From a virus: a stretch of DNA of 23,442 nucleotides. Shown in pieces: positions 3,874 to 23,106 of the stretch. The notes under the pieces are model-generated. The model worked only from the letters and a program-made list of their open reading frames with translations, made no database searches and was not told where the DNA came from. The first letter of the stretch is position 1, and every line of letters begins with the position of its first letter. Both the position numbers and the translations under genes were made by a program. The stretch lies in IMG/VR virus record IMGVR_UViG_3300020578_005189, positions 1 to 23,442 of that record; one strand, given 5' to 3'.

Positions 3874-3879
3874 GTCGCC

Positions 3880-4512
3880 GTGAGGATTCTGGTCAGCGGA
3901 GCGACGGCTACGGTCCGTGAGTTGGCGGCGGTGTATCCGGATCATCTCGGAGTCCTGCAGACGCCCCACAATGGCAACAGGCTATGCAGTCTGCCACTGC
4001 CATGGGCGTGCGACAACGCGGCGTTCTCTCGCCCCGATGACGACAAGTTCTGGCGATTCTGTATCGATGCGTGGGGCATGGACAGGCACAGTCCGCCGCT
4101 GTGGGTGGCGGTGCCGGATGTTGTCGCGAGCCATGCAGAGACGCTGAGGCTGTTCGGCTGGTGGCGGGATTACTGGCAGAGCGAGCTGGGGCAGATCCCG
4201 TTTCCGCTGGCGTTCGTGCTGCAGGATGGCTGCAGCGCACCAGAAGTCCCGTGGGATGAAATCGCGGCGGTTTTCGTCGGCGGGTCGACCAAATTCAAGC
4301 TCCGGCACAGCGAGCCGCTGATCCGGGAGGCTCAGGCCAAACAGAAACTCGTTCACATCGGGAGGGTCAACACCCTTCAAAGACTCAGATTTGCCCACGA
4401 CGTGGGAGCCGATACAGTGGACGGGACGGCGTTCAGCATGTTCCCGCGAGTCAAAATCCCGTGGGCCGTGAAATATCTGCAGTCGCTGAAGAAAAGCCGG
4501 ACGCTGTTTTAG
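3880..4512 (+). CDS. DpdA-like (TGT-related) putative deazaguanine DNA transglycosylase, 210 aa
   Basis: A GTG start 6 bases after the terL stop. The protein resembles a phage family I recall as DUF7221/DpdA-like, related to the TIM barrel of tRNA-guanine transglycosylase. Visible motifs are CDNAAFS (44-50), VAVPDVV (76-82, D80), FVLQDG (112-117), VFVGGSTKFK (131-140), VHIGRVNT (158-165) and GADTVDGTAFS (176-186). Characterised DpdA proteins swap guanine in DNA for preQ0-type 7-deazaguanines, which protects phage DNA from restriction. At 210 aa it is about half the size of a full TGT, but similar to the short phage forms as I remember them. No preQ0 synthesis gene is visible here, so a substrate would have to come from the host or from elsewhere in the phage. 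The family match is good; the activity is inferred. Confidence 0.7.
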   Translation: MRILVSGATATVRELAAVYPDHLGVLQTPHNGNRLCSLPLPWACDNAAFSRPDDDKFWRFCIDAWGMDRHSPPLWVAVPDVVASHAETLRLFGWWRDYWQSELGQIPFPLAFVLQDGCSAPEVPWDEIAAVFVGGSTKFKLRHSEPLIREAQAKQKLVHIGRVNTLQRLRFAHDVGADTVDGTAFSMFPRVKIPWAVKYLQSLKKSRTLF

Positions 4513-4539
4513 TCTCGATTATTCCGTGGAAACCATCCA

Positions 4540-10920: not shown

Positions 10921-11582
10921 GCAGCGGCACGGATCAGGCGTGTTGTGCAGACTTGACCTGCCAATGTGAGCATTGGCTGAGTCGATTTTGTGACTACGAA
11001 GCAGTGACTCATAGTTACTGCGGCGTGGAAACAGAATTTGAGTCAGCACGGTCTGTGGCAATGCCGACAGAGTCAATTCGGCCAGAAATGGGTGTAGAGC
11101 AGGCAGACCGTCTGTGGTTTGTGTCGCGTGCTGAACACGATGTGGAGAGTGGTGTTGGTGCTACGATTACGGCCTCGGACGGTTCTGTTTGGCAGGTCTA
11201 CAATTCTGCTTATGTGAAAACATACTGCCTCTGGAAACTTTGGGGGCGGAATGTCGCAAAGTGTTTTGCACTGTTAGATCCGGTCGAGATCTGGCAGGTA
11301 GATCGATGTGAAGCAGAGTGTGCCGACGGTCGCGAGGAAAAACTGGTCGCGAGGGTTCGGGCGTCGATCGTCTCCGCAGGTGGCCGTCAGCAGATCAGGA
11401 ATGACTCAGATGACATGGTGGTCGGTTACACAGCCAGGTTGGAATCGTGGCCAAAAAAGGCGGGCGAGCATCCGCAGCCGAATCACCAGCTGCGGGTGAA
11501 GGGTGTCGAGTACCGGGTGTTGAGTTTTGAGGATGGCGGGCGGTTTGTGCCGTTCACGATGTCGCTGGAGAAGGTTCAGTGA
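10917..11582 (+). CDS. Probable head-closure (stopper-type) protein, 221 aa
   Basis: The ATG at 10917 gives a 4-base overlap and has GGAGA 8 bases upstream; an in-frame ATG at 10836 would add 27 residues of low-quality sequence. After a Cys-rich N-terminus (ACCADLTCQCEHW, residues 8-20), two beta-rich halves follow, about residues 50-140 and 145-221. The second half (QLRVKGVEYRVLSFEDGGRF then SLEKV at the end) has the pattern of phage head-completion proteins, which seal the packaged head and dock the tail. The halves might be two copies of the same fold. The call depends on position between capsid and gp10-like genes. Confidence 0.5.
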   Translation: MSSGTDQACCADLTCQCEHWLSRFCDYEAVTHSYCGVETEFESARSVAMPTESIRPEMGVEQADRLWFVSRAEHDVESGVGATITASDGSVWQVYNSAYVKTYCLWKLWGRNVAKCFALLDPVEIWQVDRCEAECADGREEKLVARVRASIVSAGGRQQIRNDSDDMVVGYTARLESWPKKAGEHPQPNHQLRVKGVEYRVLSFEDGGRFVPFTMSLEKVQ

Positions 11583-12277
11583 TTACCGTCAGGATCGAAG
11601 ACAACATTGACGCGGTGATGGACGAACTGCGGGACCGTGTCTGGCTGCTGCTCAACAGTGTGGCCAGTGAACTGGTCGAGGTGTACAAGAACGACTCGAC
11701 AGGGCTCGGGCGAATTCAGTCGTTTCTGACGGAGGAGGGTCCGCCTCACAGTGCGCCGGGCGAGGTGCCGCACTACTACAACGGCCCTCGCCCCGGTGGC
11801 TATTCTTCGCCGGCTCCCGGCAGTGCAAAAAACAACGCACCGGGGAGCGGGTTTGCGGTGGATCAGGAAGCTCCGCTGTTTGAATTCATTGATTACACGA
11901 TTACTGAACGCGGCTCTGGCACGATGCCGGAAGCTGGTGTAGGATTCAACCTGCAGACAAGTGACTCTGGGGCTCCGGCTCACGTCGTGAACCGCCAGAA
12001 GAATTATCTAATTGGCTGGGATATTGGTATTGGTGCGGCGGCATCCGGTGGTTCTCGAAGAACTCCAGGCCCTGGTGAGGTGATTGACCGAAAAACTGGT
12101 CAAATACGGAAACGAAGGACCAATGCGGGACGACCAAGGACATCTGCACCGAAGTCCACCGGCGGAGGCGGGAAAAGACCGTGGGTTCGTCCGCTGTACG
12201 ATCAAGGTGTCCCACGATTGAAAGCTGCAATTTTGAGGACACTTAGTCAAATAAATCAGCCATTTGACCTGTTTTGA
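11579..12277 (+). CDS. HK97 gp10-like neck/tail-completion protein, 232 aa
   Basis: A GTG start overlaps the previous stop (GTGA, 11579-11582) and has GGAGAAGG just upstream. The N-terminal helix (residues about 8-38) followed by PPHSAPGEVPHYYNGPRPGG (55-74) is the signature I associate with HK97 gp10-like proteins of the head-tail junction (the SAPGEPP-type loop). Residues about 170-205 are basic and Gly/Ser/Thr-rich, longer than usual for this family and probably disordered, before a conserved-looking C-terminal helix (VPRLKAAILRTLSQI). At 232 aa it is larger than typical members of about 130-150 aa. Confidence 0.7.
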   Translation: MITVRIEDNIDAVMDELRDRVWLLLNSVASELVEVYKNDSTGLGRIQSFLTEEGPPHSAPGEVPHYYNGPRPGGYSSPAPGSAKNNAPGSGFAVDQEAPLFEFIDYTITERGSGTMPEAGVGFNLQTSDSGAPAHVVNRQKNYLIGWDIGIGAAASGGSRRTPGPGEVIDRKTGQIRKRRTNAGRPRTSAPKSTGGGGKRPWVRPLYDQGVPRLKAAILRTLSQINQPFDLF

Positions 12278-12453: not shown

Positions 12454-12865
12454 TTGCTGCATCGAGGAAGCGTGGCTGCAGGCTCTGCGGGGCCTGAACT
12501 GCACTCCGATCCCGGAAAAGTCTCACTTTGCGGAGATTAGGACGGGTTCGGAAACGACTCCGTATGTGGTAGTAAATGTTGCCACGGTGTCGGGACTGCG
12601 AACATCGGACGGTGTTCAACTGGGCTACAGTGTCCGAATTGCGGGATACTTTGACAAGGACGCTGTGGCTGCGAAGCGGGAGTGGGCCGAACTGCTGATG
12701 ACATATTTGACTGGTTCACGATGCTTGAGTCTTGGGAATTGTGGCTGTTTCTGTGTAACATCACTGGGAATCCTGCAAAGCACAGTTTCTCAGCAGTTGC
12801 TACAGGTTTCAATTGGTCTTACGGGTCGATACATGTCTGCCGGCGGATCTGAATCCGGCACTTGA
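12446..12865 (+). CDS. Probable tail terminator protein, 139 aa
   Basis: The GTG at 12446 has GAGGT 6 bases upstream and overlaps the previous gene by 8. Order (after gp10-like, before tail tube), size and a pattern of alternating strands and helices (TTPYVVVNVATVSG, YSVRIAGYFDKDAVAAKREWAEL, then LQVSIGLTGRY near the end) agree with tail terminator (gpU-like) proteins, which cap the growing tail and join it to the head. Cys clusters (PDCC at 2-5, CLSLGNCGCFC near 93-103) are unusual for that family. Functional call from context. Confidence 0.55.
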   Translation: MPDCCIEEAWLQALRGLNCTPIPEKSHFAEIRTGSETTPYVVVNVATVSGLRTSDGVQLGYSVRIAGYFDKDAVAAKREWAELLMTYLTGSRCLSLGNCGCFCVTSLGILQSTVSQQLLQVSIGLTGRYMSAGGSESGT

Positions 12866-12878
12866 TGGGAGCTTAATT

Positions 12879-13391
12879 ATGCCATTTTCTGCCGGTGAAC
12901 TGTGTTGCGCAATGGATGCCTGTGTGTTGATTGACACTTCAAGCACCACGCCAGCGGCTTGGGATAAAATCCCGCATGTGACTGAAATCAGTTTCAATCT
13001 GCAGGCAAACACACCGAAACTTGTGACCAGCAGCACTGGAGGCCAGGAAACCAGCCTTTGCGGTACGCTGACTCAGTCTGGAACGCTGTCAGTTGCATGC
13101 CATAAGGGTACTGCCCCTGGCTTCCTGTTCCCGAATCAGGTTTACCATATTGCATGGTCAAGTGACTGTACGGTTCTTTGGAATTTCGTAAATTGCACTG
13201 TTAAGAATACTTTTGACGGCGACTACTTTGAAGCGTACATTCGCATTACGGCTTTGCCTGTGTCCTATAACATTTCAGGCAATCAGGCCACTGTGTACCA
13301 GTATGGCTTCGACATCGTGAGTTGGGTTCTGGGCCCTGATTCAAATATGGCTACACCAAAAGCCAACGTCACCGAAGGTTTTGTTTGCTGA
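12879..13391 (+). CDS. Tail tube (major tail) protein, 170 aa
   Basis: The ATG at 12879 has GGGAG about 7 bases upstream; an in-frame TTG at 12813 would run into the previous gene and is rejected. The product is almost all beta (HVTEISFNLQANTPKLVTSS, TLTQSGTLSVACHKG, AYIRITALPVSYNISGNQAT, YQYGFDIVSWVLG), matching tail tube subunits in size, composition and position directly before the tail assembly chaperone. It has several Cys including CCAMDAC near the N-terminus and a terminal VC. It should stack as hexameric rings around the tape measure. Confidence 0.7.
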   Translation: MPFSAGELCCAMDACVLIDTSSTTPAAWDKIPHVTEISFNLQANTPKLVTSSTGGQETSLCGTLTQSGTLSVACHKGTAPGFLFPNQVYHIAWSSDCTVLWNFVNCTVKNTFDGDYFEAYIRITALPVSYNISGNQATVYQYGFDIVSWVLGPDSNMATPKANVTEGFVC

Positions 13392-13411: not shown

Positions 13412-13933
13412 ATGCAGACAGTTTCTGTTGGCGAACAGGAACTGCTGATCAAGCCGGCACGTCTGATCAATTACGTCGAGAAAGTGAACTACATCCTTTC
13501 TCGGCGTCCGGGCGTGTGGGATTTGCTGAAGCAGTTGCCGAAGACGTTTCAGTCGGACACTTATCAGTCGTTCGTCCGTGAGGCGATGACCGTGGTGCAT
13601 TCCACGGGGGCCACCGTATCCATTCAGGAAGAAGTCGATTTCGACAACAGCCTGCTTGGTTTTTACTGGACTATTTGGCGGTGCATGCCGTCTGAGCAGA
13701 AATCCAGTGTCGCGAAGAAGAAGACGTTTTTTGAGTCTGAGCAAAAAACGGCAGACATAGACCCGTCGATCGCTGGGATTCAGCGAGCGAAGGATCTGTG
13801 GGAGTTGGCGACGGACGATGAGAAACGGCAGATCCGACTGGCACTGATGGCAGCTGAGGCGAAGCCAAAAAACTCCGATGGCCCGCCGTCGAGCGAGACG
13901 ACAGCGGGCCCGGAAAATCCGGTCTCTCAATGA
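13412..13933 (+). CDS. Tail assembly chaperone (lambda gpG-like), 173 aa
   Basis: The ATG has GAGGGGG about 8 bases upstream. The gene sits between tail tube and tape measure, the invariant place of tail assembly chaperones, which bind the tape measure and recruit tube subunits. The product is mainly helical and hydrophilic, with a Pro/Ser/Thr-rich C-terminus (PPSSETTAGPENPVSQ) downstream of the slippery sequence. Its final 20 codons overlap a -1 frame ORF and contain a complete frameshift signal, as in lambda G/GT. Function is assigned from position and architecture, as these proteins diverge too far for motif recognition. Confidence 0.75.
   Translation: MQTVSVGEQELLIKPARLINYVEKVNYILSRRPGVWDLLKQLPKTFQSDTYQSFVREAMTVVHSTGATVSIQEEVDFDNSLLGFYWTIWRCMPSEQKSSVAKKKTFFESEQKTADIDPSIAGIQRAKDLWELATDDEKRQIRLALMAAEAKPKNSDGPPSSETTAGPENPVSQ
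13867..13910 (+). promoter_or_regulatory. -1 programmed ribosomal frameshift signal (A AAA AAC plus stem-loop)
   Basis: The heptamer A AAA AAC (13867-13873) is in the correct phase of the chaperone frame (CCA AAA AAC). After a 6-base spacer a strong stem-loop follows: GGCCCGC (13880-13886) pairs with GCGGGCC (13904-13910), extended past one C-A mismatch by GTCG/CGAC (13888-13891 with 13899-13902) around a 7-base loop. The -1 frame has a stop at 13855-13857 and is then open to 14098, so the slip site lies within the narrow 76-base window (13858-13933) where slippage can work. Confidence 0.88.
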
Positions 13934-14100
13934 AAATGAAGACGGCAGTCGGTGAGCCGGAAGGTGAGAAGGTCTCGTACTGCCGCTACATGTCTTTGGC
14001 TCTGGCCGTATGTGAAAAGAGGCATGTTTCGTTAGACTCTGCGCTGCAGATGACGCTGATTGAGGCGTACCAGGCACTGGGAGCAGAGGTCTATGTCTAG
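13930..14100 (+). CDS. Second tail chaperone ORF (lambda T-like), expressed by -1 frameshift as 229-aa fusion
   Basis: This frame is open from 13858 to the TAG at 14098. Slippage at 13867-13873 would give 154 residues of the upstream chaperone followed by 75 residues of this frame, a 229-aa GT-type product ending VYV. The ORF also has its own ATG at 13930 overlapping the upstream stop as ATGA (56 aa), but with only a weak ribosome binding site (GGAAAA about 15 bases away), so frameshifting is the better explanation. Its last 8 bases overlap the tape measure start. In lambda the GT fusion is the form that engages the tape measure. Confidence 0.8.
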   Translation: MKMKTAVGEPEGEKVSYCRYMSLALAVCEKRHVSLDSALQMTLIEAYQALGAEVYV

Positions 14101-17100
14101 TGGTGGCGGCCCAACATTGATGGACGTGTTCGTCGGCGTGAAGCCCGACCCACAGTTCATGCAGCAGATTGAATCGAACTTTGGCGAAGCGAGAAACAAA
14201 ATCCGCCAGATGTTTGAGGGCATCCAGACGGACGCCGGGCAGGCTGCTGCAAATGCGATGGTTTCGAGACTGCAGGAGATCAATCGACTGCTGCAGGACA
14301 TGGAGGCTCGGGCCGATCGTCTGAGGCAGGATATCGGCAGGACTGATGGTGGCGGTGGCGGCCCTCGCAGAAGGCAGCGTGGCGGTGGCGGCGGCGGCGG
14401 TGGCACTGGCGGTGGTGGCACTGGCGGTGGTGGCGCTGGCGGTGGTGGCGCTGGCGAAGAACCGCCAGACGATCTGGCTCAGCGGCTGCGGGTGGCCACG
14501 GATGAGTTTAACCGCCTGAGGCGAGCAACTGAGCCGCGGCTGAGGCTGGTTGGCGATGACGATCTAAACCGTCGCCTTCAGAATCTCGTTTCGAATGTTC
14601 AGGAGGCTCAGGCTGCATTCCGGCTTCGCGATGTCCCAGAAAGCCAGTTTTTTGATCGTGGCGAGCAGCAGATCGAGCGGGTGATTGCTGCCACTCGCAG
14701 ACTGCGAACAGGGTTGCGCCCGGCTCTTGAGACGCGAGCCACTGAGGCTGGTTTGTTGCCGGCAGATGCGGCGAACAGAGCGGATATTTCACGGACAGTC
14801 AAGCAGCAGTTTCGTGAGATCAGGCAGGAGTCCGGTCGGCTGCGAAACGAGTTCGAGGGGATCGCTCAGGCTGCTTCAAGACTGGGCCCGCAGGATATTG
14901 CGCTGAAGGAGCGATTGGGGGTTGCAAGATCACAGTTCAAGGTTTTGCAGCAGGAACTGAAGGATGCGATCGCAAACGGCAGTCTGCAGGGGGCTCAGCA
15001 GGCTCGAGACAATATCCGATCGTTCCTGAGCGGGAATGTACAGGCGGTTGGTTCATCCCCTGCAACGCCCGGATCATTCATTGGCGGATTGGGCGCTGAG
15101 ATCACGGGAGCAGCCTCAGGCCGGACTCAAAGGCAGCAGGCGCTCACTGGTATCGGGGATCTGGAGGCACAGTTTGAGGAACTGCGATCTCTGGGCAGTA
15201 AGTTTGCGCAGTTGTCGAGCACTTCAAAACTGAACATTGAAAATATCCGCCTGGCGTTCGTCGACCTGCGAGCGGAGATTGAGCGAGGAATTGAAGTTGA
15301 TCCGCTGCGAGTCGGAATGCTGCAGACTCAGATTTCGAATCTGCGAGGTTTAGTAAATCAGCGGATGGAGGCTTTGGTCAACCCGGCAGACGGTGTTGAG
15401 TCTGCGATAAATAGGGCACAGAATTTAGTCAATGAATCACAGAACAAGTCAAAACTCAAGGGAGCGCAGGTCTTATCATCACTGGCAGGTGTTAGCGGCG
15501 AAGATCGTCAAACATTGCTGAAGATCAAAACACAGCTTGAGGAAGCTATAGCTGAATACAAAGTTGCAAGGCAATCTTTCTTTGATGCTGTAGATGAAGC
15601 ATCGTCTATTAAGGCTGTTGCGCGAGTAAGAGATACGGCAGCAGAAGTGAACACAATTGCAAGTAATGCCAGCGCCAGAATGGACGAGATCTCACAGAGC
15701 AGGCTGAGAAATTTCAACGCCCTGTCCAACAGCGCCTACCAGCTCGGTCAGGCGTTCGAGGATGCAGCGATCGGATATCAGCTAAACGGGCTGGCCGGTG
15801 CGCTGCGAGGTGCGGCGAACAACATCTCGTTCGTGGTGAATAATCTTGCGCAGGCTCCAGCGATTCAGGATTCCATTGCGAGGCGGTTCGGCATTGCCGG
15901 GGCACTTGGCAGAGACTTGGTTGGAATCACGACTGGTATCGGTGCCGCACTGGCAGTCACGGTGCTGCCACCAACGGTCGAATGGCTGGAATCGCTGAAC
16001 GACATTGAACTGGAACTTGAGGACATCTCTGAGCGGTACTCTGAGATCGTTGGCAAAACAGAGCGACAGGTGAAGCTGAGCCTGGAGACGCAGCAGTTCA
16101 CTCGAGGGGTTGCACGCGCTGACAATTTTCGAGCTGTGCTGGATTCGCTGGATGATTTGCGAGAGAAGGCTCAGGATACGCGAATCGAAATTGCAGAGAC
16201 AGTCGATGGGCTGGCAAACAGCGGCGCGTTTGCAATTCTGAAAACCCAGTTTGATTCGATCAGCAAAGGCATCGACACGGTTATCGAAAAGTACCGCAAA
16301 CAAGCGGAGTTTTTGCGTCAGCCGAGTCTGATGCCGCTTGGTGCTCCTGATGGTCTTTTCAGTCCAGATAAAGTTCTCCGTGCTCAAGAAAAACCTTTAC
16401 TTCAGTTTCGGGCAACACGAGATGCTATCGTTTCGCAAATTGAAACGATTCAAAGAAGTAGTAGGGATTTCCCTGTTGCTCCAGAGTCTTTTGATAATGC
16501 CAGAAAACTCCTAAATAAGTTGCAGGACGATCTGAAGGCGACGATTGGCAGAGAGGACTTTGCAGACTTTTCAGGGCCAGCAAAGGATGCTGCTGCGCAG
16601 CTTGAGGCAAACCTGAAGCCGCTTGACAAGACTCTTGAAGATCTACGCAATCGAGCCGAGGAATTCCGTGAACTCACAACCCGCCGGCTGACTGAGGGCA
16701 TCGAGGCCGCTTTGCGGCAGACCGAGGTGCTGCAGCAGCGGCAGTTGCTGATTCGTGAGCGACTGAGCGGGCGTGAGATCCCGGGCGGTGAGATGCTGCT
16801 GGATGTGGTCGAAATGTCGAGGGCGTATCAGGACCTGATCGACAAGCAGTTGAAGCTCTACGAGCGGGCTGGGATGGCACGGCAGGATATCGAGCGGGTC
16901 CGGGCATCGCTGCAGCGGCAGGCCGATCTGGAAGTCGGGAACCAGTCTCTGGAGCAGCAGGCCGACATTCTGGAGCAGATCCGGCAGGCTGAGGAGCGGA
17001 TTGCGGAACTGCAGGGACGCCGGCGGGACGCGAGATCGCAGAACATCAACTTTGATTCACAAATGACAAAGCTGCAGGAAAACGCGCTTAGTAAGACCGA

Positions 17101-17545
17101 CGACAACACGAAGGCCCTAAAGGACGTGAGGAAGGAACTGCAAAATCTGAATGTTCGTCTGGTGAAATTGCAGGCGTCCGATTTGATCCGGAACCAGCTG
17201 AGTTTCCTTCAGGGAGAACTGGGGCAGACATCGGAGGACCCGCGGATCCCGGGGGCTGCTCAGCAGGCGGCCAGAATGCGGGAGCAGATCAACATGACTC
17301 GCCAGTTGGAAATGTTCCTGCCGGGATTCAATCCAGTTGTGCCGGGGCGTGGGGCGTTTAGTATGCCGGTGATGGCTCCCGGTATCGGGCCGACAATGGG
17401 TATGACTGAACTGGTGCTGCGGAATACTGTGCTGGACGGCTTCAGTATGCTCATGCAGTTTATGACCCAGACTGAGATCGGCCAGAAAATTCTCGGTGTT
17501 CAGGAAGCGATCAAACAGAAAGATGAGCGAGCGAGGGTGAACTGA
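14093..17545 (+). CDS. Tail tape measure protein, 1150 aa
   Basis: The longest gene of the window, directly after the chaperones. It sets tail length and is ejected at infection. Residues 1-85 are helical; about 86-122 form a Gly-rich linker coded by 15-bp repeats; then follow long coiled coils rich in Leu, Arg, Glu and Gln, a hydrophobic segment (about 601-632, ITTGIGAALAVTVLPP) as is common in tape measures, more coiled coil, and a Pro/Met-rich C-terminal region. No lysozyme or peptidase motif is seen. By the family rule of thumb of about 1.5 angstrom per residue, the tail would be near 170 nm. The ATG at 14093 has GGGAGCAGAGG upstream; the TTG at 14060 is rejected. Confidence 0.92.
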   Translation: MSSGGGPTLMDVFVGVKPDPQFMQQIESNFGEARNKIRQMFEGIQTDAGQAAANAMVSRLQEINRLLQDMEARADRLRQDIGRTDGGGGGPRRRQRGGGGGGGGTGGGGTGGGGAGGGGAGEEPPDDLAQRLRVATDEFNRLRRATEPRLRLVGDDDLNRRLQNLVSNVQEAQAAFRLRDVPESQFFDRGEQQIERVIAATRRLRTGLRPALETRATEAGLLPADAANRADISRTVKQQFREIRQESGRLRNEFEGIAQAASRLGPQDIALKERLGVARSQFKVLQQELKDAIANGSLQGAQQARDNIRSFLSGNVQAVGSSPATPGSFIGGLGAEITGAASGRTQRQQALTGIGDLEAQFEELRSLGSKFAQLSSTSKLNIENIRLAFVDLRAEIERGIEVDPLRVGMLQTQISNLRGLVNQRMEALVNPADGVESAINRAQNLVNESQNKSKLKGAQVLSSLAGVSGEDRQTLLKIKTQLEEAIAEYKVARQSFFDAVDEASSIKAVARVRDTAAEVNTIASNASARMDEISQSRLRNFNALSNSAYQLGQAFEDAAIGYQLNGLAGALRGAANNISFVVNNLAQAPAIQDSIARRFGIAGALGRDLVGITTGIGAALAVTVLPPTVEWLESLNDIELELEDISERYSEIVGKTERQVKLSLETQQFTRGVARADNFRAVLDSLDDLREKAQDTRIEIAETVDGLANSGAFAILKTQFDSISKGIDTVIEKYRKQAEFLRQPSLMPLGAPDGLFSPDKVLRAQEKPLLQFRATRDAIVSQIETIQRSSRDFPVAPESFDNARKLLNKLQDDLKATIGREDFADFSGPAKDAAAQLEANLKPLDKTLEDLRNRAEEFRELTTRRLTEGIEAALRQTEVLQQRQLLIRERLSGREIPGGEMLLDVVEMSRAYQDLIDKQLKLYERAGMARQDIERVRASLQRQADLEVGNQSLEQQADILEQIRQAEERIAELQGRRRDARSQNINFDSQMTKLQENALSKTDDNTKALKDVRKELQNLNVRLVKLQASDLIRNQLSFLQGELGQTSEDPRIPGAAQQAARMREQINMTRQLEMFLPGFNPVVPGRGAFSMPVMAPGIGPTMGMTELVLRNTVLDGFSMLMQFMTQTEIGQKILGVQEAIKQKDERARVN
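14399..14458 (+). repeat. Four 15-bp repeats coding a Gly-rich linker
   Basis: Four units of GGTGGC(A/G)CTGGCGGT lie head to tail at 14399, 14414, 14429 and 14444, the last ending GAA. They encode GGTGG, GGTGG, GGAGG and GGAGE inside the tape measure protein. A less regular GGC/GGT tract lies just upstream (14347-14398). Such tracts are prone to slippage, so copy number may vary among relatives. Confidence 0.9.
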
Positions 17546-19442: not shown

Positions 19443-21163
19443 TGGCTGTTCAGAAGGGCCGACAATGTGGAGGCTGCTGTTGCGGCGGATGCTCCTCGCC
19501 TCCGCGTGACCTGCGAGGCCCGACTGTTGGTGAACTTCCTCAGTTCTCGATTCAGTCGCTGTGCTGCAGTTGCCTGCCGAACCAGATCTGTGTGCAGATT
19601 GTTGAAGATGGGGCCTATGACGAATCGTGGGCCCACATTGAGCGAGCCTGCGATAAGATGCAGCCGGCTGGCGGTGGTCCGCTGCAGTTCTCAGGGAACG
19701 TCTGGTATGACGGCGAACTGCATTTGTTTAACTTGTATCTCGAATTGAGGCCGGACGGAAACAGCCAGGTTTGCTGGGTGTTGTGGGAAATCGATTCGCT
19801 GGGCTGGTCTGGCGAGAAACTGATCAATCACAACCTGCTGACGACATCCTACGATTGCGATTTGCGGATGAAGTCTGAGGACTGTGCCACCTTTGGCGGC
19901 GAGTGGCAGGTGACTGAAGCAATCACGCTCATAATCTCGACTCCAGAAACTGTTGATTTGGCGGAGGCCGTCGAGTGTGGTGGTTGCGGTTGCGTGTGTG
20001 ACTGTATTTGCCTGTCGATCTGGTCACGGGATGCGGCTGAGACGATCGAGTTCACGGGCCAGAATGCGATTGTGTGTGCGCAAATCGATGATGGGATGCG
20101 ACAGATCTGCGCGGCTGGCGATCCGCTGAAGCTAGGCGGATTTGTGTTTTGGGAGCTGGATGGATGGCAACTGCGGATTAACGGTGGAACGATGGTCCCG
20201 CCTGACAGCTTTACGCTGATTGCTGGAACCAGCACTCTTGCCTGCAATTTGCAGGACACTCTGACAGTGATCGACGAGTGGGAACATTTGATTGACGCGA
20301 CCGCAGGCGGTGCAGCGGAGGTTGAGTATCAATGGGATATTGACGATCGCATGGCTCGCAGACTGCAGTGGGCCGGGATCTCAAATGGCAACCTATCAAA
20401 AACTGAATTCTTTGGTTGGAACTGGGCTACGAGTCAATGGGATTTGTTTGGCGAGATCGAAGGGCGTCAGTCCGGCCAGATTGAGCGTACATTCCGGCAA
20501 GATCTTTCTGATGACTTTACTGGCACCGGCGCGAATCTTGGCATAGTGAAGGTGAAGATCAAGTCCAGAACGGCACAGAGGCTGAGGAACGATCAGTTGC
20601 TTCTGCAGACAACAAGATGCTGTGAGATTGAACTGATACCACCATATTATGTTGTTCCTTCATCACCTCTTGAAAAGTTGAATCTGGCTCAGGTTGGGCA
20701 GTGTCCATCACCACACAAATTTTGGAATTTTACAGACACGTCAGGGATTGACTGGACGGTCGCCTTTGAGTGTTTGTGGTGTGGAGGGCGGTGTGGAACA
20801 TCAATTACATCCTGCTGCCCGAGGCCGATTCCAGCAGTAGTGTTTGCTGAGATTCTGATTGACTGCCCGCCGTGCGGGGCAGGATTGACTGTTCCACTGC
20901 AGAACATCAGTCCTTCAATTTGGGAGGGTGTTGGATTGCATTGCGGGAGTCCGTTGTCTGTTCGGTTTTCCTGCTCTGGATCCTCTTGGTATATTGAAGT
21001 TGAAGGAGCCGGGGCTTGCAGTTTCCGTGGTTTTGCAACAACGACAGACTGTGATCCTCTGAATGTGACATTCTCAGGCGATTTTTCTGGCGGCTTGGGA
21101 TGTTGTGGCACTCAGGAAAACGGCCAGAACGGTGCCCCAATTACGATTGTTGTGATTGAATGA
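19442..21163 (+). CDS. Very cysteine-rich tail protein, 573 aa
   Basis: The ATG at 19442 overlaps the previous stop as TGATG; a GTG three codons earlier is an alternative. About 38 of 573 residues are Cys, many in clusters: CGGCCCGGC (9-17), CCSC near 41-44, CGGCGCVCDCIC near 178-189, then CLWCGGRC and SCCPRP in the last third. Each cluster is followed by beta-rich sequence of about 100-180 residues, suggesting three modules each opening with a Cys knot. The end (GFATTTDCDPLNVTFSG, then ITIVVIE) is also beta-rich. It has no signal peptide. Position suggests an adhesin or tail-tip protein stabilised by disulfides or metal. No known family recognised. Confidence 0.75.
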   Translation: MAVQKGRQCGGCCCGGCSSPPRDLRGPTVGELPQFSIQSLCCSCLPNQICVQIVEDGAYDESWAHIERACDKMQPAGGGPLQFSGNVWYDGELHLFNLYLELRPDGNSQVCWVLWEIDSLGWSGEKLINHNLLTTSYDCDLRMKSEDCATFGGEWQVTEAITLIISTPETVDLAEAVECGGCGCVCDCICLSIWSRDAAETIEFTGQNAIVCAQIDDGMRQICAAGDPLKLGGFVFWELDGWQLRINGGTMVPPDSFTLIAGTSTLACNLQDTLTVIDEWEHLIDATAGGAAEVEYQWDIDDRMARRLQWAGISNGNLSKTEFFGWNWATSQWDLFGEIEGRQSGQIERTFRQDLSDDFTGTGANLGIVKVKIKSRTAQRLRNDQLLLQTTRCCEIELIPPYYVVPSSPLEKLNLAQVGQCPSPHKFWNFTDTSGIDWTVAFECLWCGGRCGTSITSCCPRPIPAVVFAEILIDCPPCGAGLTVPLQNISPSIWEGVGLHCGSPLSVRFSCSGSSWYIEVEGAGACSFRGFATTTDCDPLNVTFSGDFSGGLGCCGTQENGQNGAPITIVVIE

Positions 21164-23106
21164 ACTCACTTTGCGAATGTGCGGCGACTGGTTTTTGCTC
21201 AAGACATCAAATGTACAAGGGAGAGCAGCGTTTTGCTCACTGCCGTGGCGTCAGCAAAAGCGCAGACTGTGGACTAGCGTTTTGGAATAAATGGGAGCAG
21301 GGCCAACTGGGGGCGACGGCTCCGGCAAATCCCCAACTGAATCCTGCTGGGTTTTGTGATTCACTTTCAGAAGCACCGTATTCCACGATTGGTGATCAGC
21401 TCAAAGCAATCATTCAGCGTGAAACGGGAATTGAGATTCCCTGTGAGGCATGCCGACAGAGGATTGCCCGGCTCAATTCCATGAGTCGTGATGAAGCAAT
21501 GAATTCTGAGACACGACGGCAAATCGTTGATGAGATCTCACAGCAGGCGTCTGCAGGAGTCGGAAACTGGATTCAGCGTTTGGGCATTGCGTTTGACGCG
21601 ATGGCAGGAACCGGGTTACTGCGATCCAACATTGAGCGATGGTATGACGAAGCCGTGGATGCAGGGACAACAAACGTCAGCAAAACATCGGCGGCTGTTG
21701 CCGTAGTGGTGGCAAATAGGAATCAGACGGTTGTGGCTCCGCAGGCTCCCGCATGGGAGCGACCAGCCCGCAGAAAGGCCGGTGCTGAACAGGACAGGCT
21801 GCACAGAATTGCGGTGTCATCTGTTCCATTGAAAAGGCAGTGGCAGTGTGAATCTAGACCGAAGGTGAATTTGGTATATCATCTGTGGCCACGGAAAGGA
21901 TTATGGGAGCGGCATCTTCAAAGATTGCAGCAGTTGATTGCTTTGTGTGATGGCAGGGTGATTGTCGGTATTTCAACAGACGCTGAAACTGACCGATTTG
22001 AAGACGTTGCAGCAGCGGTTTGGCCTGCTCAGGATGGAAGAGTTCACTGGTTGCCAAGTGTGAATATTCGGCATAATCAGGGCATCTGGAGTCGCGGGGC
22101 GAGGTTTGGCGAGCTTCAGACCGCGATTCCAGCCATGGAGCTGCTCCGCGACCTGCCGGAGGATTCAGTGACTCTCTATGCTCACGGCAAGGGCATGCAA
22201 GATCATACCTTTAGGTCAAACGCTGTCAGGGTGTGGACGGACATCATGTACGAGTCGATAATGTTCCCGATCGATAAAACGATTGAAACAATTTCGTCAG
22301 GATATGAGTGTGTCGGAAATTTTCGCACGTTCGGTCTGCGTCCGCTAATGTGTTCGTACAAGTGGCACTACGCCGGGACGTTCTACGCTTTTCGTACTCG
22401 CGCTTTAGTGAATTCATCCGGCGTGGCTAAATATCAGATGCGATATGGTGGCACGGAAGCGTGGCTGGGAGATCACATTCGACCCTCAATGGCGGCCTGC
22501 GAATTTGCCGACAACAGTCCGATCATAAGACAGTACGACGATAATCTGATGACCGAGGTCGCCGGAGATTATCTGCGGTATGAGTCGATGCAGCATGGCA
22601 ACGGGCCGAAGCTCGAACAGCATCGGAGAGAGTGGGCGTGGTTTCTTCGCCAGGTTTCTGACGTGAAGAGCATGCTCATTATCGGCAGTCGCTTTGGTGG
22701 GATGGAACATCATTTGCGAAACGTGTTTGCAGAAATGCGTCTGGTGTCTGTTGATCTCGATCCAGATGCAACAAACAAAACAGACTGCTTAGTGATTGGC
22801 GATTCGCATAACTCTGAAATTCAGGATTTGCTTAGGAATCGTGGGCCGTTCGATGCCGTCTTCATTGATGGAGATCACACATACGACGGCGTAAAGCTAG
22901 ATTTTGAATTTGCCTGCAGCCTAAATCCTCGATATGTTTTTTTGCATGACATCACGAATGACATCTATCATCAGGCGACTGGATGCCAAGTTGAGAGGCT
23001 CTGGAAAGAGATTGTTAGCGATGCGGGATCCCTTGGATGGGCAACAGATTCATTTGCTGTCGGCTGCGGGTGGGGAGGGATTGGCAAAGTCATTTTTAGG
23101 GCATGA
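21160..23106 (+). CDS. Fusion of Cys-rich, glycosyltransferase-like and SAM-methyltransferase domains, 648 aa
   Basis: The ATG overlaps the previous stop as ATGA. Residues 1-100 carry two Cys groups (CECAATGFC-x14-C near 5-28 and CEAC at 95-98), a possible zinc-ribbon-like or disulfide region. A linker of about 100 residues follows. Residues about 235-470 look like a glycosyltransferase-type Rossmann fold (VNLVYHLWP start, VTLYAHGKGMQDH near 337-349, HYAGTFYAFRTRAL near 403-416). Residues about 500-605 match class I methyltransferases of the Methyltransf_24 type: SMLIIGSRFGG (504-514) as SAM loop, SVDLDPD (530-536) and FDAVFIDGDHTYDGV (564-578). The product could glycosylate and methylate a surface glycan or virion protein. 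The methyltransferase call is strong, the glycosyltransferase call moderate. Confidence 0.75.
   Translation: MNSLCECAATGFCSRHQMYKGEQRFAHCRGVSKSADCGLAFWNKWEQGQLGATAPANPQLNPAGFCDSLSEAPYSTIGDQLKAIIQRETGIEIPCEACRQRIARLNSMSRDEAMNSETRRQIVDEISQQASAGVGNWIQRLGIAFDAMAGTGLLRSNIERWYDEAVDAGTTNVSKTSAAVAVVVANRNQTVVAPQAPAWERPARRKAGAEQDRLHRIAVSSVPLKRQWQCESRPKVNLVYHLWPRKGLWERHLQRLQQLIALCDGRVIVGISTDAETDRFEDVAAAVWPAQDGRVHWLPSVNIRHNQGIWSRGARFGELQTAIPAMELLRDLPEDSVTLYAHGKGMQDHTFRSNAVRVWTDIMYESIMFPIDKTIETISSGYECVGNFRTFGLRPLMCSYKWHYAGTFYAFRTRALVNSSGVAKYQMRYGGTEAWLGDHIRPSMAACEFADNSPIIRQYDDNLMTEVAGDYLRYESMQHGNGPKLEQHRREWAWFLRQVSDVKSMLIIGSRFGGMEHHLRNVFAEMRLVSVDLDPDATNKTDCLVIGDSHNSEIQDLLRNRGPFDAVFIDGDHTYDGVKLDFEFACSLNPRYVFLHDITNDIYHQATGCQVERLWKEIVSDAGSLGWATDSFAVGCGWGGIGKVIFRA

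Follow-up and report, generated by a model that had tools for sequence, protein, structure and literature searches.

A conserved signal for predicted -1 ribosomal frameshifting in the putative tail chaperone gene of an uncultured phage group

Sequence comparison points to programmed -1 frameshifting by the ribosome, as known for lambda G/GT and predicted to yield tail chaperones of 173 aa and 229 aa, in a virus record of 23,442 bases (IMG/VR record IMGVR_UViG_3300020578_005189, positions 1-23,442), called the window below. The probability of this interpretation is put at roughly 93%. A -1 frameshift cassette in tail chaperone genes had been proposed in a sequence-only reading of the same DNA, and the proposal was supported by conservation of the signal, by codon identity and by hairpin tests; actual slippage, a slip rate and chaperone functions for both products are what we infer. 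The anatomy given in that reading, with its heptamer, spacer, interrupted stem-loop, -1 frame and products of 173 and 229 aa, was correct to the base. The features are listed in Table 1.

Table 1. Features of the window at the predicted frameshift signal and in the neighboring genes
Feature	Coordinates	Strand	Remarks
Probable major tail protein	12813..13391	+	PHROG 1407 E 0.0058, weak; upstream of the chaperone
0-frame chaperone (putative)	13412..13933	+	ORF, 173 codons; gpG-like by position; syntenic homologues ~35-51% identical
-1 frame open segment	13858..14100	+	gpGT-like extension; conserved in relatives
Slippery heptamer A_AAA_AAC	13867..13873	+	in phase with ORF 13412-13933
Spacer TCCGAT, 6 nt	13874..13879	+	between heptamer and hairpin
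Stimulatory hairpin (predicted)	13880..13910	+	outer 7 bp, mismatch, inner 4 bp, loop AGCGAGA
Small ORF, 56 codons	13930..14100	+	starts at the ATGA overlap 13930-13933; start not conserved
Tape measure protein	14093..17545	+	ORF; PHROG 167 tape measure E 1.5e-4

The slip site is an in-phase heptamer of the X_XXY_YYZ form expected of a -1 signal. It is read as the codons CCA AAA AAC, its first base being the last A of CCA. Another plus-strand AAAAAAC within the chaperone gene, at 13743-13749, is not in register. In the -1 frame a TGA at 13855-13857 precedes the open stretch, which begins 9 nt before the heptamer and is closed by a TAG at 14098-14100. The part following the slip (13873-14097) comprises 75 codons, giving a predicted shift product of 154 + 75 = 229 aa. 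GAGG at 13856-13859 was considered as a candidate for an upstream Shine-Dalgarno-like stimulator; the motif was not conserved among the relatives compared, and the candidate was rejected.

The order of the genes, major tail protein, chaperone, -1 ORF and tape measure, was the same in the relatives. The chaperone gene was found between the tape measure gene and the gene assigned, by a weak match (E 0.0058), to the major tail protein. The listed ORF of the latter starts at a TTG and the true start may be further in; the protein is 56-59% conserved in the relatives. The ATG of the tape measure gene (14093) overlaps the end of the -1 frame, and the tape measure copies of the relatives gave likewise weak tape measure matches. 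No named match for the window chaperone protein was obtained in Pfam, PHROG or PDB, and fold searches with the models of the chaperone and the extension gave no significant match. The best viral matches were uncharacterised proteins of uncultured Caudovirales. The AF2 model of the 0-frame product was only moderate (pLDDT 72), with a low-confidence tail at residues 156-173, and the C-terminus is predicted to be disordered from about residue 156. Because no named profile or fold matched, the gene is assigned as a probable tail assembly chaperone from its position in the gene order, its size, its architecture, the disordered C-terminal tail and the frameshift itself.

Scans of viral contigs with the chaperone and tape measure proteins returned only a near-identical contig (L003), which was 99.6-99.8% identical to the window in DNA over two long blocks, had a signal identical by eye, and was uninformative across the signal. 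Portal alignment gave contigs with a portal protein about 53-55% identical to that of the window, and capsid alignments gave contigs with a capsid protein 42-66% identical. In the first set of relatives the chaperone was 40-49% and the small ORF 54-57% identical, and the two preceded the tape measure gene in unchanged order. Among bacterial and archaeal genomes, scans with the capsid found no relative. Searches of 50,697 phage records by tblastn with the capsid and chaperone proteins gave no match, and the terminase was the only protein with distant matches there. When the signal region was compared with cultured phages by short blastn, the matches were at chance level only. The earlier suggestion that the phage is undescribed holds as far as tested.

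The 3' end of the chaperone gene was reached by 29 contigs (window included), all of them recruited by capsid, portal or chaperone protein and not by the motif. An in-phase heptamer was present at the equivalent place in all 29, from many metagenomes and down to 42% capsid identity, which answers the check on homologous loci proposed in the sequence-only reading. The heptamer was A_AAA_AAC in 11 contigs, A_AAA_AAA in 4 and G_GGA_AAC in 14, many of the last being closely alike, which brings the count of independent lineages closer to nine. In 29 of 29 the spacer was 6 nt long and was followed by GGCCCG; some relatives have TCAGAT, TCAAAT or TCGTCT as spacer. With the signal conserved in every contig recruited without the motif, chance is excluded. 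The split ORF on its own would also fit a sequencing error or a decayed gene, but this hardly credible explanation is refuted by the same split and phase in 29 contigs from many metagenomes and by selection on both frames. Slippage of the RNA polymerase, and not of the ribosome, on the A run would suit the A_AAA_AAC and A_AAA_AAA lineages with their runs of 6-7 A. It was rejected as highly improbable, since the 14 contigs with G_GGA_AAC have only three A in a row and yet keep the same position, phase, spacer and hairpin, and a spacer of fixed length before a hairpin is characteristic of signals acting on the ribosome.

The 20-mer pattern WAAAAAAHTCCGATGGCCCG was matched in 14 of 2.9 million viral contigs, always at the 3' terminus of an ORF resembling the chaperone. 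Two contigs found by the motif itself, L062 and L055, were left out of the 29. L055 carries the identical 20-mer in a distant chaperone on the minus strand (11109-11890), with a tape-measure-like ORF just downstream. Its chaperone-like ORF was recognised at E 4e-7 only, and the available stretch showed no recognisable capsid, portal or terminase relation.

The predicted hairpin begins 6 nt after the heptamer, within the spacing of 5-9 nt sought for a structure. In its outer stem GGCCCGC (13880-13886) pairs with GCGGGCC (13904-13910), and in its inner stem GTCG (13888-13891) pairs with CGAC (13899-13902), with a C.A mismatch between the stems and a loop of 7 nt. The region 13864-13925 had a minimum free energy of -27.3 kcal/mol (z = -3.1), and 2 of 200 shuffled sequences were as good. 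Because indels displace the 3' arm, which is then wrongly placed by MAFFT, alignment-free fold and half-swap tests took the place of formal covariation counting on the alignment. The outer helix, a hairpin base formed by the GGCCCG arm, was predicted in 19 of 19 distinct homologous sites, compared to 6-21% of dinucleotide shuffles and 24-55% of shuffles with the 5' arm held fixed. The mean z was about -3.1, and -3.0 with the 5' arm fixed; weak z-scores were seen at three sites (L018, L021 and L055). The distance to the 3' arm varies by lineage, yet the pairing is kept. When halves were swapped between lineages, the resulting hairpins lost about 3 kcal/mol of stability on average relative to the native ones. 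Outer pairs are almost invariant among the sites, and classical covariation is for this reason uninformative there. Inner pairs change type, for instance at offset 13, where 5 sites have C-G and 12 have G-C, in tables which take the partners from predicted folds and are thus biased towards pairing. No match for the signal was found in Rfam.

The -1 extension was found to be a conserved protein across 19 representatives (28-57% identity to the window), with the pattern K/G-K-L/I, mostly R, then W-P, followed by a helical domain. The last 37 residues were modelled with a pLDDT of about 80-92, and tblastn detected the small ORF in the relatives at 42-57% identity. Codon identity at amino-acid-identical columns was determined in 12 representatives. 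From the slip site to the 5' stem arm, codons were identical in 344 of 369 cases (0.93), compared to 2043 of 4216 (0.48) in the upstream chaperone ORF, and the best of 149 sliding windows all overlapped the signal. Conserved -1 coding was accompanied by suppression of synonymous sites, the latter being a check proposed in the sequence-only reading. Judged from these comparisons, both frames are under selection. A core of about 20 nt, made up of the heptamer, the spacer and the 5' stem arm, is triply constrained, by the 0-frame reading K-N/K-S-D-G-P, by the -1-frame reading K-K-L/I-R-W-P and by RNA pairing.

The ATGA overlap had been suggested to give the small ORF a second route of expression. 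Carried further, the small ORF would be a separate gene translated by re-initiation at the ATGA (13930-13933) once the chaperone stop had been reached, with an incidental or secondary role left to the slip site. An ATG is also present in L009, L011, L014, L012, L021, L039, L041 and L057, and a good AAGGAG stands a few bases before it in L011 (11535-11549) and L014 (16250-16264). The ATG of the window, however, has no Shine-Dalgarno-like sequence in front of it. L018 and L047 have no ATG, GTG or TTG before the conserved domain, L062 and L055 have no start codon until inside it, and all four keep the slip signal. The G_GGA_AAC lineage has no ATG at that place and only GTG codons further in, again with the signal kept. 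Moreover, KKLRWP, read in the -1 frame ahead of any ATG, is conserved. The start is missing in relatives that have the signal, so the second route cannot be taken as conserved, and separate initiation was rejected as a very unlikely explanation of the arrangement. Separate initiation of the extension domain may have been added in one sub-lineage, that of L011 and L014. It is conceivable, if rather doubtful, that the core of about 20 nt has been retained or transferred as a unit outside the phage group, as the shared 20-mer in L055 might suggest, and that in L011 and L014 the Shine-Dalgarno-driven start would release the extension as a free third protein.

According to the preferred reading, a programmed ribosomal frameshift, most ribosomes would stay in the 0 frame and produce the 173-aa chaperone. 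With tRNAs on A_AAA_AAC and the GC-rich hairpin 6 nt ahead, a minority would slip back by one base and read the -1 frame to the TAG at 14098, producing a 229-aa protein with an additional conserved helical domain. In E. coli, A_AAA_AAC is less shift-prone than A_AAA_AAG (PMC5009743). If the two products act as in lambda, their common part would be the one that binds the tape measure protein, and recruitment of the major tail protein would fall to the extension.

The arrangement resembles that of lambda in the order of major tail protein, chaperone, -1 extension and tape measure, in the use of an X_XXY_YYZ heptamer, and in a -1 ORF whose end adjoins or overlaps the tape measure start. The lambda heptamer is G_GGA_AAG. 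It differs from the heptamer of the window, and no protein sequence or fold similarity to lambda was detectable; a further feature here is the GC-rich hairpin, conserved and placed exactly 6 nt past the heptamer. Frameshifting by -1 in tail chaperones is classical, with lambda gpG/gpGT as the reviewed case (PMC5009743), and lambda G/G-T and its counterparts in long-tailed phages are covered by Xu, Hendrix and Duda 2004, as cited in that review. In the Caulobacter phages phiCbK (AAAAAAC) and Colossus (GGGAAAC), the heptamers lie in chaperones preceding the tape measure gene (PMC3556154). The same two heptamers and the same gene position are found here, but in a different phage group, whose chaperone and capsid had no tblastn match in the phage records searched. 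The haloarchaeal viruses HCTV-1 (G_GGA_AAC) and HCTV-2 (A_AAA_AAC), cited in PMC5009743 for g-t frameshifting, have the same pair of heptamers; their hosts are archaeal by report, and no sequence relation was seen. Acinetobacter phage Loki has AAAAAAC at gp12/gp13, where a chaperone fusion is predicted ahead of the tape measure gene (PMC5313236), as in the window. The Loki motif was reported directly beside the stop, whereas here the stop is 57 nt past the heptamer with the hairpin in between. Stem-loops 3' of -1 slip sites are standard and have been discussed for bacterial and phage clusters (PMC4066793).

The heptamer-plus-stem arrangement had been thought possibly new. It is not new in kind, both main heptamers having been published for phage tail chaperones; the site is a new example of a known phage mechanism, and no new mechanism is shown. 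Its specific trait is a core of unusual rigidity, which a wide group of uncultured phages has in common and in which the heptamer is exchangeable. An uncultured phage group whose capsid and chaperone had no match in 50,697 records is hereby placed firmly in the tail-chaperone frameshift class, and the series among the relatives would allow the trade-off between slip site and hairpin to be measured. For annotation, the two ORFs should be joined.

Some observations were made outside the signal. The window is about 99.6% identical to L003 up to about 14329, and the tape measure diverges abruptly after its first approximately 80 codons, which suggests an exchange inside the tape measure gene (window from 14330 onward, L003 from 14373 onward). 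A Gly-rich GGTGGC repeat occurs in the tape measure copy of the window, at about 14350-14460. The stretch 3875-4528, with an ORF at 3880-4512 (210 aa), separates the two blocks matching L003 and appears to be replaced in the latter. At 21160-23106 the window encodes a 648-aa protein with a Cys-rich N-terminus, and the C-terminus of this protein matched a methyltransferase family weakly, at a level that falls short of the curated cut-off (PF13578, E 1e-4).
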